A stretch of 64,000 nucleotides of DNA, taken from positions 186,001 through 250,000 of the forward strand of contig NZ_JACJSA010000004.1 of assembly GCF_014697545.1 (NCBI RefSeq), in the 5' to 3' direction. Shown piece after piece: positions 7,342-15,430 of the stretch; the first letter of the stretch is position 1; the number at the start of each line of letters is the position of its first letter. Under the pieces are notes generated by a model. The model was not told the origin of the DNA and made no database searches. It was given only the letters and a program-made list of their open reading frames with translations. The translations under genes and the position numbers were made by a program. Source of the stretch: Oscillatoria sp. FACHB-1407. Its GTDB lineage: Bacteria; Cyanobacteriota; Cyanobacteriia; Elainellales; Elainellaceae.

Positions 7342-7992
7342 TTACTTCCGGCGTTCTTGCAATTTGCGGTAGACATCGCGGATATCAACGTTGTGATGTG
7401 CCAGGGCAACGAGGGTGTGATAAAACAGGTCGGCAACTTCTCCCGCGATCGCCTCTGGGTCATCGTCTTTACAAGCCATCACGACTTCGGCAGCTTCTTC
7501 GCCAATCTTTTTCAGAATTTTGTTGTCTCCTCCAGCCAGGAGTTTGCAGGTGTAGGAGTCGGGGGTGGGGTTGTCACGACGATCGCGAATCACAGCGGCG
7601 AGTTGCGACAGGGTATCAGCAGGGGGTGGGGCGATCGCATGATCGATCTGGTGAAAACAACTGCGTTCTCCAGTGTGGCAGGCGATGTCACCGATTTGTT
7701 CGACGCCGATGAGCAGCGCATCACTGTCACAGTCATACCGCAGCGATCGCACCTGTTGCAGATGCCCAGATGTGGCTCCTTTGTGCCACAGTTCACCACG
7801 CGATCGGCTCCAAAACCAGGTTTCTCCAGTATCCAGCGTCTTTTGCAAGGATTCACGATTCATCCACGCCATCATCAACACCGTGCCATCTAGATAGTCC
7901 TGCACGATCGCGGGCACCAAACCCTGTTCGTTGTAGGCAATTTCATTAACGGGGATGGCGGGATTGGTCAAGACAGATGGATTGGCTGACAT
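7342..7992 (-). CDS. hisIE: Bifunctional phosphoribosyl-AMP cyclohydrolase / phosphoribosyl-ATP pyrophosphatase
   Basis: HisIE carries out the second and third steps of histidine synthesis: removal of pyrophosphate from phosphoribosyl-ATP (HisE part) and opening of the adenine ring (HisI part). HisI occupies about residues 12-115, with the zinc/metal residues in [12 protein letters not shown] and CHTGERSCF. HisE follows from about 125, with [28 protein letters not shown] and LVALAHH. I start at the ATG at 7992 (216 residues, usual length). A longer open frame upstream would overlap the divergent surface-protein gene by over 160 bp and adds nothing conserved. Confidence 0.95.
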
Positions 7993-8134
7993 AGGTCGAA
8001 ATGGCTGAAACGTCCGGATTGTGAATAATGATTGCGAAGGTTGAGTTAGCGAGGACAGATAAATCGCTAGATCTAGCGTAATCCGAATCGGGGACACTGC
8101 CTCAATACGAGAGCCGTTTTGTGAGGAATGGGTT

Positions 8135-11100
8135 GTGAAAAAAGTGGCACGGTATGTCTCGGCAGGATTAGTGCTTACTCCCACGATGAGTGATGCTGCG
8201 ATCGCACAGGTCAACTCCCCAGGTTCAACAGAGTCTCCTGATACGGCGATCGCCACGCCACAGGCACGCATCACGGTCACCCCTGAGAACACAGCCATTC
8301 TGCGGCAACCCGCGATGCAAGTTTCTCAACCTGAACTGGTCGCCCAGATTCCGGTGCAAAAGCCAGAGACAGAAACCACAGGCACCGCAGCAGATTTGCG
8401 GATTTCTCCTCGTATCGGCATCGGGCACAACAGTTCGGGAGGGGGGTATGACGGCACAACTCGGTTTGAGGGGTTTTTGCCGTTGTTTCAAACCAGCGGT
8501 CGTGATATTGCCTTCTTAGAAGGACGGTTTTTGCTCGACAACGATGCCAATGTTGGGGGCAATCTGTTGTTAGGCTACCGCGCCTACAGTCCCAGCGCAC
8601 GACGCACTTTTGGCGGTTATATTGCCTACGATAACCGCGACACTGATGAGAATACGTTTAACCAACTGGGAGTTGGGTTTGAGAGCCTGGGGGATCTGTG
8701 GGATTTTCGGGTGAATGGTTACCTGCCTATTGGCGATCGCCAACAGGAGGTCGGTACTCGCCAGCTTTTGAATACGTTCTTTCAGGAGCGATCGCTGATC
8801 TTGCAGGAACGTAGCCTATTTGAAGCGGCAGTGGGCGGTGTGGATGTGGAAGCCGGGGCGAAATTGGCAGAACTCGGCAATGACGGTGATTTACGGGGCT
8901 ATGGCGGTCTGTATTGGTACGACGCACCCGGTAGCCCCAGCGGCGTGGGTTGGCGGTTGCGCTTAGAGGCTCGCCCAACGGACAGTTTGAACGTGGGCTT
9001 AGGCGTGCAAGGAGATGAGTTATTTGGCACGAATATTCTGTTTCGCGTTGGGTTAACATTTCCTGGTCGTCGTCCTCGCCGGGTGATTGCCCCTGAAAAT
9101 ACCGTTGTGGCGCGTTTAGGGGAAACGGTGGAACGCAACCCCGTGATCGTTGTGGATACGCAGGAAACCATCAGCGATACGGTGGCAACCAATCCAACTA
9201 CAGGAGAACCCTACGTCTTTCAGCATGTCAACTTAGGTAGAGCGGGAGGCAATGGCACCTTTGAGAATCCCTTTGGCACGATTCAGCCTGCATTAGATGC
9301 CACTCAATCCGATGGTAATGCGATCGTTTACGTGCGACCGGGCAGCAATCCCGGTAATCCTGGTTTTGTGATTCCCGATGAAGTGCAAGTGTTGTCTAAC
9401 GCTCCAGTGCAGCGGCTTAATACCCGTGAGTATGGCGTCGTGCGGTTGCCCCTTTCAGGCGCGGGAGTGCGTCCACGTATTACTGATAGTGTGGTGATGG
9501 GCAGCAATACCACCCTGTCAGGGTTTGACATTACAGGACGCACCGGAGCAGGTGTAATCGCCGATACGGTGAGCAATGCGGTCATTCGAGACAATCGCAT
9601 CACTAGTGCCGAAATTGCCGCCGTACAACTGGAAGACACGGGGGGCACGATTACCCTCGATCGCAACCGCATTGTAGGCAACACCGTTCCAGTGTTGTTG
9701 GGAACGAATATCAATCAGGTCAACGTCACCAACAGCACCCTGACCAGCACCAACTCCACCACTAATGGCATCACGCTCACTGACGTGACAGGAGCCGTCA
9801 ACATGACGGATAGTGCAATTCGCATTACGACCCCTAGCGATGCAGGGATTGCGATTCGCAATGCGACTGCCCCGGTGACGATCGCCGCTGAACCGGGGCA
9901 GATTACCAATGCTGGAGCCGCAGGCATCGTTTTAGAAAACAGCACTGGCGCGATCGCCATTTCTGGCTTCAACATTAGCAGCCTTGGAGGGGCGGGCATT
10001 CGCGCCAGTACGATTGCCAATGCCACTCTGGACAACAACACAATTACGACCTCTACAGATGCAGGCATCTTTTTAGAAAACACCACAGGCACTATTACCG
10101 TCACCGATAGCACTGTGACTGCCAACACCGTTCCGGCATTAGTGGGCAACACGATCGCCAATCTGCAAGTGAGGGATAGTCGCCTGAACAGCACCAACTC
10201 CGCCAGCGATGGGATCACCCTCAACGGAGTCAGCGGCACCGCAACAATCCAGGACAGTGCGATCGCAATTACAACTCCCGCAGCGAACGGCATTGCCCTG
10301 ACCAATGTCACTGGATCAGCGGCGATCGCTGCATCACCCGGTACGATTACCAATCCGGCAAATGCTGGAGTGTTGATTCAAACCAGTCCCGGTCGGGTCA
10401 GTGTTTCTAATCTGCAAATCACTGGAGCAGGCAGCGATGGCATTACAGGCGACACCATCGGAACGGTGACGTTGAATAACAATGCGATCGCCAACTCTAC
10501 TAACAATGGGGTTGCGCTGAGCAATATCACCGGATCTGCAACCGTGAACGGTAACACCATTACCACCACAGGGCAAAGCGGCATTACTATCACCAATGCC
10601 ACGAACACCAGCGTGAATGAAAATACGATTGAGGCAGCGATCGTTGATGGAATTGCGCTCAACAATGTCACTGGAACGGCAACCGTGAACAGTAATACCC
10701 TCACCAGCACTGGGCAAAACGGCATTCTACTGAACAACACAACGGGGCAAGTTAATCTGACCGCATCCGGCAACCAGATCTCGATCCCCGGTGCAAGCGG
10801 CATCAATGTAGACCTGTCGGGTGACGCAGGAGGGACGGCTACCATCACCAACAACTCCATCACCAACGCTGCTCAACAGGGAATTGCACTCAACGTCACC
10901 TCGAATGGGACAACTTTTCGTCCTCTGGTAGAATCCAACGTTGTTACAGGTAGCGGGGATGCCGGTGTGACACTGGCAGCCAATGGGACAACTCAAATTG
11001 CGGCGGGAGTCCGGCTCAACCAGTTCGATCGCAATAACTTGAGCGGCACTGCACCAGCAGGCGTCAACATTGTTAATAATGCTTCTCCTAATTTATGTGT

Positions 11101-11269
11101 GCAACTGCGCGACAACACCAGCAGCAACACGACTGAAGGCTTTAACTTGCAGCAAAACTTAGGTGATCCTCAAACATTTGACGCGGAGATTGGCGCAAAC
11201 AACGTCGGCACATTGACGACGAGTGGAACGGTTGTAAACTCGGTTGCTCAAGGAACTTGCGGATTTTAG
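8135..11269 (+). CDS. Outer-membrane beta-barrel with beta-helix passenger (inverse-autotransporter-like)
   Basis: This 1044-residue protein starts at a GTG with GAGGA 8 nt upstream. A signal peptide covers roughly residues 1-25 ([17 protein letters not shown]). Residues about 90-325 look like the intimin/invasin-type barrel: alternating aromatic/glycine strands such as [31 protein letters not shown] and [18 protein letters not shown]. From about 335 to 1030 there is a long right-handed beta-helix made of short repeats rich in Asn, Thr, Gly and Ile ([35 protein letters not shown]). Known inverse autotransporters usually export Ig-like domains, so a beta-helix passenger is a variation. Role may be adhesion or surface-polymer binding. 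The barrel assignment is inferred from pattern. Confidence 0.75.
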
Positions 11270-11458
11270 CCAGTAAGAACTATCAATTTAATAACATCTT
11301 AATAACATCGAGTTTTTCTTAATTAGAAAATTTAAGTGAAATATTGCTGTGGGAATTTTGGGAGTTGTTATAATTCACCGCATATTTTGGTTTGGTTGAT
11401 GAATTTGTGAGATGGGCGATCGCAAACTAACTCAGCCAACAGTCCAAGTGAGGAAGCT

Positions 11459-11989
11459 ATGACCGCAGATATTCCCAATGATTCTGAGCAGTTTGCTCGC
11501 TTTTCAATGACCCAATCTCTAGGGCGATTTAGCTTTCTCTGGCTGATTACCCTTGGGATCTATGGGTTACATTGGCATTACATGAATTGGCGAGCCTTCG
11601 GGTTCGGAAAGTTTAGTTCAGGGTTTTTTGCCCTCTTTAGTGGGTTTGCAATTTATGGGTTGGCTAGACGTATTTTTCAGTTAGCCACTGGGCAGGGAAT
11701 GACCGTTGGAGTTGATCCAGCCATCCTTTTGTTTGCTTGTGTGTTAGGAGGAATTCTGAGCAATCGAACCCCTGGATTTTGGTTTATTTTGGGGTTGCCG
11801 CTCATTCTGATTCCAACGCTATACCTTCAGCAGTTCCTTAATACCTATTGGTCAAAAGTAAAACCTGATCGTCCACAAAGACCCCTCTTTTCTGGAGGTT
11901 TTTTTGTCTGGACGATTGTAGGAGTTATTCTCTGGGGTTTAACGATTGTAGGAATTCTTATGGAGATGGGTCTGATTCAAGAAGGGTAA
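11459..11989 (+). CDS. Multi-pass membrane protein, unknown function
   Basis: The 176-residue product has an AGGA ribosome binding site close to the ATG. It has four hydrophobic segments at about residues 25-42, 55-70, 84-122 (possibly two) and 147-168. The motif LWLITLGIYGLHWHYMNWRAF resembles the opening of DUF4234-like small membrane proteins, which have LTLGIYxxYWxY, but the match is partial. It stands alone between the surface protein and cyanophycinase. Confidence 0.65.
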   Translation: MTADIPNDSEQFARFSMTQSLGRFSFLWLITLGIYGLHWHYMNWRAFGFGKFSSGFFALFSGFAIYGLARRIFQLATGQGMTVGVDPAILLFACVLGGILSNRTPGFWFILGLPLILIPTLYLQQFLNTYWSKVKPDRPQRPLFSGGFFVWTIVGVILWGLTIVGILMEMGLIQEG

Positions 11990-12099: not shown

Positions 12100-12918
12100 C
12101 TACACGGCTACCTGCACCAGAGGAGCACGTCTGGCTAAGTCAAACTTGTAACCATTGGGCAAAATGTGCAACTTGGCACCACAAATTGCCAGGTTCTCAT
12201 CCCGCAGCAAATCCTCAACGTTTGTGTGGGTAATGTTTGCCACGTCAATGACGGTTACCGCCCCACTACCAATCACCTCTAACTCCGCTCCATTGATGGC
12301 GATCGCTGTATCTTCGTCGATACCAAATCCCAAAATGGCGGGTTGCTGTGCCAGCGCGGAAATTAATCGTCCCAATCGCCCCCGTTGGGCAAAGTGTTGG
12401 TCAATCACAACCCCCGGCAAAAATCCCATCCCTGGACCCATCTTCACCACTTCCATGCGGGGATTGGTTTCTGACTCGCCTTCAACAATCATCACATCGG
12501 GCATCATGGCTGCCCCTGCACTGGTTCCAGCAATAACAATGCCCTGCTGAAACCGTTCGTGTAATTTGGCATCCAGTTCTGTGTCTTTGAGGCAGTCGGT
12601 AATGCGGGCTTGGTTGCCTCCTGTAAAGAATACGCCTGTTGCCTGCTCGATCTTAGCGATCGCCTCTGGATTGCTCGCATCATCGCGCCGTTCAGTGTCA
12701 ACTACTTTCACATTTTCGACGCCCAAGCGTTCAAACACACGAATGTAATCAGAGCCTACCTGTCCGGGTAAACCTGTCGCTACGGTCATGACAACAATCT
12801 GCGCTTGCAAGCCTCCCGCTCGGCGTACAAACTCACGTAAAACTTTGCATTCCCCTTCTCGGTCTTCTGCACCGCCAATAATCACTAACTGACCGTGAGA
12901 CTCGTCTAAAGCTACCAT
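12100..12918 (-). CDS. cphB: Cyanophycinase
   Basis: Cyanophycinase is a serine exopeptidase of family S51 that degrades the storage polymer cyanophycin to beta-Asp-Arg dipeptides in the cytosol. The nucleophile serine is Ser133 in GTSAGAAM, and the fold markers LVIIGGAEDR (residues 11-20) and GVFFTGGNQARI are present. I use the ATG at 12918, giving 272 residues, close to the usual 271; an upstream TTG would add 14 unconserved residues. It is divergent from cphA2, with one small gene between. Confidence 0.94.
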   Translation of the reverse strand: MVALDESHGQLVIIGGAEDREGECKVLREFVRRAGGLQAQIVVMTVATGLPGQVGSDYIRVFERLGVENVKVVDTERRDDASNPEAIAKIEQATGVFFTGGNQARITDCLKDTELDAKLHERFQQGIVIAGTSAGAAMMPDVMIVEGESETNPRMEVVKMGPGMGFLPGVVIDQHFAQRGRLGRLISALAQQPAILGFGIDEDTAIAINGAELEVIGSGAVTVIDVANITHTNVEDLLRDENLAICGAKLHILPNGYKFDLARRAPLVQVAV

Positions 12919-13024
12919 ATCAAGTTCTGTATTTAATGTTATTCCACTCAAACACAGCAACCCATAAGGCTTAAACGTCCGTTAGACAGATTTGGTAGGA
13001 ATATGAGAGAAGAAGCAGTGGAAG

Positions 13025-13057
13025 CGTAGGGAGTGGGGAATAGGGAATGGGGAGTGA
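13025..13057. repeat. STRR-type heptamer run (GGGRATR)
   Basis: A few tandem units of GGGAGTG, GGGAATA and GGGAATG occur here. The same units recur at 15429-15461 directly after cphA2 and inverted at 45301-45325. Short tandemly repeated repetitive heptamers are a known trait of filamentous cyanobacteria. Confidence 0.6.
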
Positions 13058-13093
13058 ACCTTCTTTGCTCTGACTCCCCCTGCCTGTTGATTA

Positions 13094-13312
13094 CTACAAA
13101 ACGGCTTCTTCTCTTAAGCGATTTAGCAAAATTAACGTTCTCAAGAGATTCTGAGCATATTCCAAACTCAAATGTCGGGGTTTTCCTTTGTAAACAATCT
13201 GGTATTCTCCATCGTATTCACCATCGCCATAACCGGATATTAATCGTTGATGAAATGCTTCTTCAGCTAGCTGTTGAACAGATTCTTTTAGAGCAGCTTG
13301 ATTCATATTCAT
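13094..13312 (-). CDS. Small conserved-looking hypothetical protein
   Basis: The product has 72 residues and is acidic with mixed charge. It includes ESVQQLAEEAFHQRLISGYGDG and LEYAQNLLRTLILLNRLREE, which look like two amphipathic helices around a Gly/Tyr-rich turn (GYGDGEYDGEYQIVYKGKPR). I do not recognise a named family. Its place between cphB and cphA2 could mean a link with cyanophycin, but it may be coincidental. Confidence 0.6.
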   Translation of the reverse strand: MNMNQAALKESVQQLAEEAFHQRLISGYGDGEYDGEYQIVYKGKPRHLSLEYAQNLLRTLILLNRLREEAVL

Positions 13313-13519
13313 AGGGCTGTCTCCTAATATGTTTTGTTTCTTATTAGGTTTGTTATAGAAAATATTGAGGCTGCATTTAAACTTTCAAAGGGTGTAATAC
13401 TAGCTACCAAAAATTCGCTCGTATGGGCAGGTTGAAGACATCTCAGCATCGCCCCTAGATAGAGGAAATGAGTGGGCGATCGCGCTAAACTCAACCCGAA
13501 CAGTTAGAGTAATCGGGTT

Positions 13520-15430
13520 ATGGTGCTAGAACAAAGCTCCAACACGTATAGCGTTAATGCCCGCAGAACAGATGCATTTGATGTATTTAATTGCGGCACC
13601 TACATCGGTCCAAATCCCTATCTTGATGCAGCCGCATTTGTATTTGACTTCGCCTTAACGGGGCATCGGGAGCCATTGCCACTGGAGGAATATGTGGCGG
13701 TGATTGGCGATCGCTATCCCCAGTTGCGTGACCAGACCTTTGACTCTTACGCTCATCTATTCGCTCAAACTGCCCTGGAACTGAGCAAGTTGGAGATGGA
13801 CTTGCACTTTCATCGCTGGAGCATGAAACCTCTTGAAGGCCGGCACAGAATTGCTGTGCAGGCGTTGCATGGGCGCACCAGTCGCGCCGTTGTGTATGGG
13901 GTCTGGGACTGGTTTGAGGCGATCACAAAAGATCAACCTTTTAATCTGAGTGACCAGATCGAGGTCATGCAAGGCATGTTTCGACAGTCGGTCTATGGTG
14001 GACCAACGGTTTATGCCTTACTGCGAACGGCTTACGAAAAAGGCATTCCGACCTTCTACCTGTGGGATGAAGGGCTAATGCAATACGGCTACGGCAAAAA
14101 ACAAGTCCGGGGGGTTGCGACGACCTTTGATGGAGATAGTCACCTCGACTCTGACTTCACCACCCGTAAAGATGATTGCAAAGCCTTTCTCAGTACGCTG
14201 GGGTTTCCGGTTCCGCGTGGGGAAATTGTCATCTCAGCCGATGAGGCAATCTCAGCAGCACGGCGAGTTGGCTATCCCGTTGCGGTGAAGCCCGTCGTGG
14301 GGCACAAGGGACATGGGGTGACCACCGACATTCAGGATGTCGATGGGATTGAAATCGCGTTTGATCACGCTGTGGAGGCGATCGCCGAGAGTGACCCCAT
14401 TCGTGTCATTGTTGAGCAAAGTGTGAGAGGCTCCGATTATCGCTTGCTGTGTGTCAACGGTCGTTTTGTTGCCGCTACAGAACGTCGTCCTGCCTTCATC
14501 GTGGGGGATGGGGAATCAACAATTGAAGAGTTGATTAACCAAGAAAACCGTCAAATTGCCCGCACTGATACCCCTACCTCTCCGTTGGGCAAAATCAAAA
14601 TTGATGACGCCATGGAGAACTACCTCGATGAACAGGGGTTGTCGTTGGATAGTGTGATAGAGCGCGATCGCACCATTTATCTCCGCAGGGTGGCAAACCT
14701 ATCGGCAGGTGGATTGAGCATCGACGCAACGGCGACCGTCCACCCCGACAACATTATCCTGGCACAGGATATTGCCCAGCACTTCCGCCTGACCTGTCTG
14801 GGAATCGACGTCATCGCTCGTGATCTGTCGCGTTCCTGGCGAGACGGCAACTTTGGTATTCTCGAAATCAACGCTGCTCCGGGAGTTTACATGCATTTGA
14901 AACCCTCGGTAGGCGATAGCATTGACGTCACTTCTGCGATTCTTGGTACGTTCTTTGAATCGGGCGCAGCGGCTCGCATTCCTATCATCACGTTTAACCG
15001 CGTTTCTATCTCAGAACTTCAAGAAACCATCGACCACATTCTGTTTCAACATCCCACCTGGACGATTGGAGCAGTCTGTCGAGATGGCGTCTTCGTTAAC
15101 CGGGCGGAAAAAGTGTTGCATCCGGACTACAACACAAATGTGCAAAACCTAGTCCGCAATCCAAAGCTCGATCTGCTAATTGTGGAATACGCCGAAAGCA
15201 TCCTGGAACGGGAAGGCATGTTCTATTACGGCAGTGACATTGTGGTGCTCAACAATCCCACTGAAATGGAGTTGACGCTCACTCGCGATGTCTTTGATCA
15301 CTCTACGATTGTCGTCAAAGAGGGTGACACGGTTTCCATCCGTCGTCAGGGCTTAATGGAGCAATACCGCTTAGGTGGCTCAGAACCCTTTCAACGGGTA
15401 TATCTCAAAGAGCTTGCCACGATTTTGTAG
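13520..15430 (+). CDS. cphA2: CphA2-type truncated cyanophycin synthetase
   Basis: The 636-residue protein has the CphA N-terminal domain (to about 160), then an ATP-grasp domain (about 205-490) with VGYPVAVKPVVGHKGHGVTT, RGSDYRLLCVNGRFVAATER and FGILEINAAPGVYMHL. The remaining 150 residues correspond to the Mur-ligase-like half of CphA1 but lack its P-loop: where CphA1 has a VTGTNGKTTT-type motif, this protein reads IITFNRVSISELQ. CphA2 enzymes (about 630 residues) join beta-Asp-Arg dipeptides into cyanophycin instead of starting from free amino acids, which would recycle the product of CphB next door. No CphA1 gene is in the window. Identification rests on length, domain loss and motif context. 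Confidence 0.87.
   Translation: MVLEQSSNTYSVNARRTDAFDVFNCGTYIGPNPYLDAAAFVFDFALTGHREPLPLEEYVAVIGDRYPQLRDQTFDSYAHLFAQTALELSKLEMDLHFHRWSMKPLEGRHRIAVQALHGRTSRAVVYGVWDWFEAITKDQPFNLSDQIEVMQGMFRQSVYGGPTVYALLRTAYEKGIPTFYLWDEGLMQYGYGKKQVRGVATTFDGDSHLDSDFTTRKDDCKAFLSTLGFPVPRGEIVISADEAISAARRVGYPVAVKPVVGHKGHGVTTDIQDVDGIEIAFDHAVEAIAESDPIRVIVEQSVRGSDYRLLCVNGRFVAATERRPAFIVGDGESTIEELINQENRQIARTDTPTSPLGKIKIDDAMENYLDEQGLSLDSVIERDRTIYLRRVANLSAGGLSIDATATVHPDNIILAQDIAQHFRLTCLGIDVIARDLSRSWRDGNFGILEINAAPGVYMHLKPSVGDSIDVTSAILGTFFESGAAARIPIITFNRVSISELQETIDHILFQHPTWTIGAVCRDGVFVNRAEKVLHPDYNTNVQNLVRNPKLDLLIVEYAESILEREGMFYYGSDIVVLNNPTEMELTLTRDVFDHSTIVVKEGDTVSIRRQGLMEQYRLGGSEPFQRVYLKELATIL

Follow-up and report, generated by a model that had tools for sequence, protein, structure and literature searches.

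The question raised by the locus considered here is whether a cyanophycinase gene and a gene for a shortened cyanophycin synthetase, divergently arranged around a gene for a 72-residue protein, constitute a system for rejoining the dipeptides released from cyanophycin, and whether such a system stands in for the de novo synthesis of this polymer or works beside it. The three genes, cphB2, the small gene and cphA2, occupy positions 12100-15430 of a 64,000-nucleotide stretch of Oscillatoria sp. FACHB-1407 (hereafter the window; contig C4:186001-250000 of an 8.13-Mb assembly in 66 contigs). The encoded proteins, the other cyanophycin genes of the genome and the distribution of these families across the phylum point to a dipeptide re-polymerisation module that probably operates alongside the CphA1-CphB1 system and in which the small protein is probably an accessory of CphA2. 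What is directly observed in its favor is the identity of the genes, the state of their motifs, the presence of both systems in a single genome, and the co-occurrence and adjacency of the families involved.

The synthetase and the cyanophycin genes of the genome

The rightward gene at 13520-15430 (+) encodes a protein of 636 residues, which aligns nearly end to end, across residues 3-635, with 8fxh (642 residues, 959 bits) and over nearly its full length with 7ta5 (629 residues, 734 bits). We take both of these to be CphA2 structures, their entry titles reading RimK domain-containing protein and glutathione synthase, and the window protein is alike to them in length, with no notable difference found; its best match among CphA1 structures is 7lgm at 262 bits. 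Motif scanning of this protein, the Mur-like half of which is shortened, detected neither a GxxGK[TS] P-loop nor the CphA1 primer motif Cx19HxxEH, both of which are present, together with EVNAAPG, in the CphA1 of the same genome. The ATP-grasp half is retained, with EINAAPG at residue 449, and the frame contains no internal stop. These absences match the traits given for CphA2 in sections of two published accounts, namely lack of the N-domain motif (PMC9262961) and lack of the P-loop and Mlid (PMC9427784). On account of the structure-chain alignments and this agreement in missing motifs, the assignment as CphA2 is sound at the level of sequence. The original prediction, made from the DNA letters alone, had recognized the P-loop-less Mur-like half correctly, and its estimate that the protein is about 240 residues shorter than CphA1 is to be replaced by 278, as measured against the genome's own enzyme (636 versus 914 residues).

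Polymerization of beta-Asp-Arg dipeptides is described for CphA2 in parts of PMC10206079 and PMC9262961, and the earlier reading of the locus as a site of dipeptide re-polymerisation agrees with both these accounts and the sequence. The reaction, known for CphA2 of relatives, can be transferred by analogy to the window CphA2, which would then act on the same dipeptides. An inactive enzyme, or one acting on another substrate, might be suspected from the score of 363.5 bits against the CphA1 model TIGR02068, which lies far under its cut-off of 850 bits; the near full-length match to two solved CphA2 chains, the intact ATP-grasp motif and the uninterrupted frame argue to the contrary, and we regard this possibility as very improbable.

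The locus had originally been framed as cphB beside cphA2 without cphA1, which implied that recycling substitutes for de novo synthesis, and set against the many cyanobacteria in which cphB is paired with cphA1 instead. The rest of the genome contradicts this framing. On contig C2, cphB1 (L003 5807-6730, 307 residues) is followed directly downstream by cphA1 (L003 7009-9753, 914 residues), which matches TIGR02068 at 1257 bits; hence, "cphA2 without cphA1" describes the locus only, and the contrast fails as this genome possesses both pairs. Further, in a sample of 291 genomes of the phylum, for which the co-occurrence counts and Fisher p values given throughout ignore relatedness, a CphA1-type match is found in all 33 genomes with a CphA2-type match. 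The search elsewhere in the genome proposed along with the prediction thus recovered cphA1, and for the isoaspartyl dipeptidase it returned two Asparaginase_2 genes as candidate IaaA-type isoaspartyl peptidases and no match to IadA; nifH and argD are also present.

The arrangement has a precedent in Anabaena sp. PCC 7120, where alr0573 is cphA2 and where a cphB1-cphA1 pair presumably lies elsewhere in the genome; the description of the cph1 and cph2 clusters reportedly goes back to Picossi in 2004. The window shares with the cph2 cluster a leftward cphB2, a leftward small gene and, presumably, a rightward cphA2, a correspondence drawn by locus tags. Of the other two tags, all0571 is named cphB2 in a passage of PMC4915528, and asl0572 appears in a part of PMC2823733 as a 75-residue hypothetical protein listed as Nostocales-specific. 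By this analogy, the window cluster matches the Anabaena cph2 cluster as its likely counterpart, from which the genome differs in having an extra orphan CphB2-type copy on contig C26. The core of the cluster is accordingly ordinary and belongs to a type already known, and the parts worth specialist time are the CphA2-linked small family and the loss of the ArgD patch in CphB2. The small gene is also found in named loci of further groups, among them Coleofasciculus, Microcoleus and Leptolyngbya, and, with its presence in this genome, is therefore not specific to Nostocales.

The small gene and its distribution with cphA2

The 72-residue reading frame anticipated between the divergent genes is indeed present at 13094-13312 (-), and a divergent intergenic region of 207 bp (13313-13519) separates it from cphA2. 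An alignment of 40 sequences (A1; the window copy and 39 of its 67 other homologues, thinned by similarity) shows 47-63% identity to the window copy and 15 invariant positions, with LISG and GKP.H among the invariant residues, and the median dN/dS is 0.26 over the 334 usable of 780 pairs, with 230 pairs left out for saturated dS and the remainder for dS of at least 1.5. The AlphaFold2 model predicts a helix-strand-strand-strand-helix arrangement with a mean pLDDT of 93.8. Searches by sequence and by fold brought up no convincing relative. The window copy matched nothing in NCBIfam or Pfam and reached a best E-value of 0.11 in PHROGs, while the 40 homologues gave best E-values of 0.011 in Pfam and 0.74 in a PDB sequence profile search; a plasmid search returned no match. 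With the model as query, Foldseek reported nothing under E 0.001 (best 0.69), and VIA-align 2 gave Z-scores of 6.0 to 5b64_B (rmsd 2.7, 72 aligned) and 5.2 to 7u66_G (rmsd 3.0, 61 aligned).

The comparison of its distribution with that of cphA2, likewise proposed with the prediction, reveals that the small gene tracks cphA2: it is found in 25 of the 291 genomes, every one of them with CphA2. Single-sequence and 40-row profile searches agree on this, and in the latter the weakest true match (E 4e-23) is widely separated from the next candidate (E 0.003). In 24 of these 25 genomes it is divergent from cphA2 and at most 0.7 kb away, the exception being G056, in which cphB2 is the closer gene, at about 0.4 kb, and cphA2 is 7.7 kb away. 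The CphB2-type cyanophycinase, defined by at least 54% identity to the window CphB2 (the next matches do not exceed 44%), is present in 28 of the sampled genomes; 25 genomes have both CphA2 and CphB2, eight have CphA2 alone, three have CphB2 alone and 255 have neither. A link between the small protein and CphA2 was not found in print in the open-licence literature, where only asl0572 was met.

Among the named cphA2 loci, which are the best 80 of 170 relatives, the small gene occurs in 67. Gene clustering of the same loci, limited to longer reading frames and hence recovering the small gene in only 53 of them, places cphB2 in 58 and the next cluster beyond the small gene in 28. A gene resembling an alpha-amylase or branching enzyme, named by eye, also stands near cphB2 in 28 of the 80 loci (e.g., L106 2367-4043), and might reflect either neighborhood history or a link to carbon storage.

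CphB2, the predicted ArgD contact and the presumed partner of the small protein

The leftward gene, cphB2, extends over 12100-12918 (-) and encodes 272 residues if started from the ATG at 12918, or over 12100-12960 (-) if started from the TTG at 12960; matches to most homologues begin near the ATG, which is therefore the likelier start. The product scores 337.5 bits against the cyanophycinase model TIGR02069 (cut-off 126.6), 255 bits against the cyanophycinase 7uqv and 166 bits against 3en0, and the predicted adjacency of a cphB gene to a divergent cphA2 is thereby upheld. With these references it shares the catalytic motifs, i.e., GTSAGAA with the serine nucleophile (aligned with the 3en0 motif) and DQHF..R.R..RL, which are retained in CphB1 and CphB2 sequences alike, whereas it lacks the S46-R47-E48-R55 set. 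These are the residues predicted, in a section of PMC12661447, to contact ArgD, which is reported there to bind and stimulate the Synechocystis CphB; according to the same source, their conservation among CphB proteins of 1000 cyanobacterial strains is almost absolute.

At the four contact positions, the window CphB2 has T, G, L and D, the segment reading TGLPGQVGSD where the motif SRxPxxIGxR would be expected, and the commonest version of this segment in the CphB2 family is TELPREVGEN. The pattern is general: 68 of 71 CphB2 sequences, one of them gapped at this point, keep none of the four contacts and the other three keep one, as against 18 of 20 CphB1 sequences with all four and two with three, counting D as E. 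Of the 20 regions taken as CphB1, 19 were classed as such and one, L170, is slightly closer to CphB2; L170 and L188 are weak rows and were set apart in this count. The split suggests that CphB2 may not be stimulated by ArgD in the way that CphB1 is thought to be. It was not found in print in the open-licence literature.

Two further cyanophycinase-like genes were observed in the genome. A second CphB2-type gene, 76% identical to that of the window, lies at C26:57043-57846 (L006 1492-2346), with no synthetase, cphA2 or small gene within its 3.8-kb locus. The other, at C2:323819-324640 (L008 1405-2796), is a 464-residue reading frame that scores 111.8 bits against TIGR02069, under the cut-off of 126.6, and has a start resembling a signal peptide as judged by eye; it might be a secreted cyanophycinase.

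The loss of the ArgD patch also bears on which enzyme the small protein serves. It could belong to CphB2 rather than to CphA2, acting as a cyanophycinase activator that perhaps replaces the lost ArgD contact; it is encoded on the same strand as cphB2, no terminator-like site was detected in 12850-13560, the region that includes the spacer between them, and in G056 it is the cphB2 side to which it stays close. The genomes in which the two families part company tell against this alternative, which we hold to be unlikely: five genomes (G019, G022, G068, G225 and G278) have the small gene beside cphA2 and no CphB2-type gene, and the three with CphB2 and without CphA2 (G089, G099 and G117) also lack the small gene. 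Promoter-like sites in the same 12850-13560 region are at chance level (two found, 1.5 expected).

Possible coupling of the three genes and the proposed circuit

Several observations weigh against the reading of these genes as a functional module. Eight of the 33 CphA2 genomes lack a CphB2-type enzyme and eight lack the small gene; hence, neither is essential for CphA2. Within the CphA2 genomes, the tie between the small gene and CphB2 is not significant (20/5/5/3, Fisher p 0.37). A phylogeny-aware test of the small gene against an adjacent cphB2 yields only four supported independent pairs and is for that reason without power; the underlying CphA2 tree is a quick one with SH-aLRT support only and long branches, and both traits could be scored in 77 of its 92 rows, the rest being too close to the end of the available stretch. 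CphB2 and CphA2 active together would cut and rejoin the polymer to no net effect, as a futile cycle, if they did not act at different times or in different cells. Finally, no conserved NtcA-like site was found: GTAN8TAC, which we take to be the NtcA consensus, occurs in 10 of 68 small gene-cphA2 intergenic regions, with 8.3 expected from mononucleotide shuffling. Regulation by NtcA was dropped as an explanation on the basis of this near-expected count. The window does have a perfect GTAN8TAC at 13394-13407, within the divergent intergenic region, as one of five in its 64 kb; it is not conserved in relatives, and no such site is present in the 14-kb cphB1-cphA1 locus L003.

An alternative is a conserved neighborhood without functional coupling, maintained by shared descent, with CphA2 taking its dipeptides from any cyanophycinase and chiefly from CphB1, which is present anyway. 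Beyond the many CphA2 genes beside which cphB2 or the small gene is missing, this is favored by a Nodosilinea-type group, which forms one clade in the tree of CphA2 and has retained cphA2 while the small gene is missing in nine of nine loci (L041, L049, L054, L057, L071, L075, L084, L094 and L105) and an adjacent cphB2 in all eight with enough flank for scoring. These losses do not appear to hide diverged copies. Sensitive searches (hmmsearch --max, with E-values admitted up to 10) for a diverged small gene found none in the 13 of 13 named loci negative for it and none around cphA2 in eight of eight regions from small gene-negative genomes, two of which (L178 and L179) cover only 3.3-3.5 kb and yet span cphA2 to cphB2. 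However, descent alone accounts poorly for the fact that the other neighbors recur much less often than the small gene and cphB2 (28 loci for the next, as against 67 and 58), for the small gene never being found without CphA2 in the 291 genomes, and for the constraint on its sequence indicated by the dN/dS value. We therefore consider an uncoupled neighborhood doubtful.

A variant arrangement was seen at locus L184, where genome G105 has two CphA2-type genes in tandem (C112:8060-9823 and 10043-11929), 49% and 56% identical to the window CphA2; this genome lacks both a CphB2-type cyanophycinase and the small gene. Elsewhere in the window, a 1044-residue reading frame at 8135-11269 (+), the 5' end of which overlaps a minus-strand frame at 7342-8298, matches Beta_helix and NosD and, below threshold, an inverse-autotransporter beta-domain, and might encode a large surface protein.

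Under the preferred reading of a re-polymerisation module beside CphA1-CphB1, CphA1 would build cyanophycin from Asp and Arg, cyanophycinases, the window CphB2 included, would release beta-Asp-Arg dipeptides, and CphA2 would rejoin these into cyanophycin at its single ATP-grasp site. Nitrogen packed as dipeptides could in this manner be stored again without IaaA first having to cleave these into Asp and Arg. The product of the window CphB2 would presumably be used directly by the window CphA2, and the 72-residue protein could serve the latter as a subunit, a regulator or a granule-targeting factor. The divergent layout might further allow the cutting of the polymer, by cphB2 and perhaps also the small gene, to be set separately from the rejoining by cphA2. 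A more specific proposal, which we put forward tentatively and think less likely than not, is that the small protein is a dedicated partner of CphA2, i.e., an accessory subunit or switch, and that with the patch-less CphB2 it forms a second circuit for cyanophycin. This circuit would be independent of arginine synthesis and would buffer nitrogen as beta-Asp-Arg while CphB1, CphA1 and ArgD handle net storage.

The accounts of the enzyme cited here present CphA2 as standing alone. The small gene, being tightly tied to CphA2, offers a concrete and cheap candidate for the control of dipeptide re-polymerisation, and as such is also a candidate for how a futile cycle of cutting and rejoining might be avoided. 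The split between CphB1 and CphB2 at the ArgD patch, in turn, qualifies the near-absolute conservation that has been published for it, and predicts that two differently regulated cyanophycinases would be present per cell.

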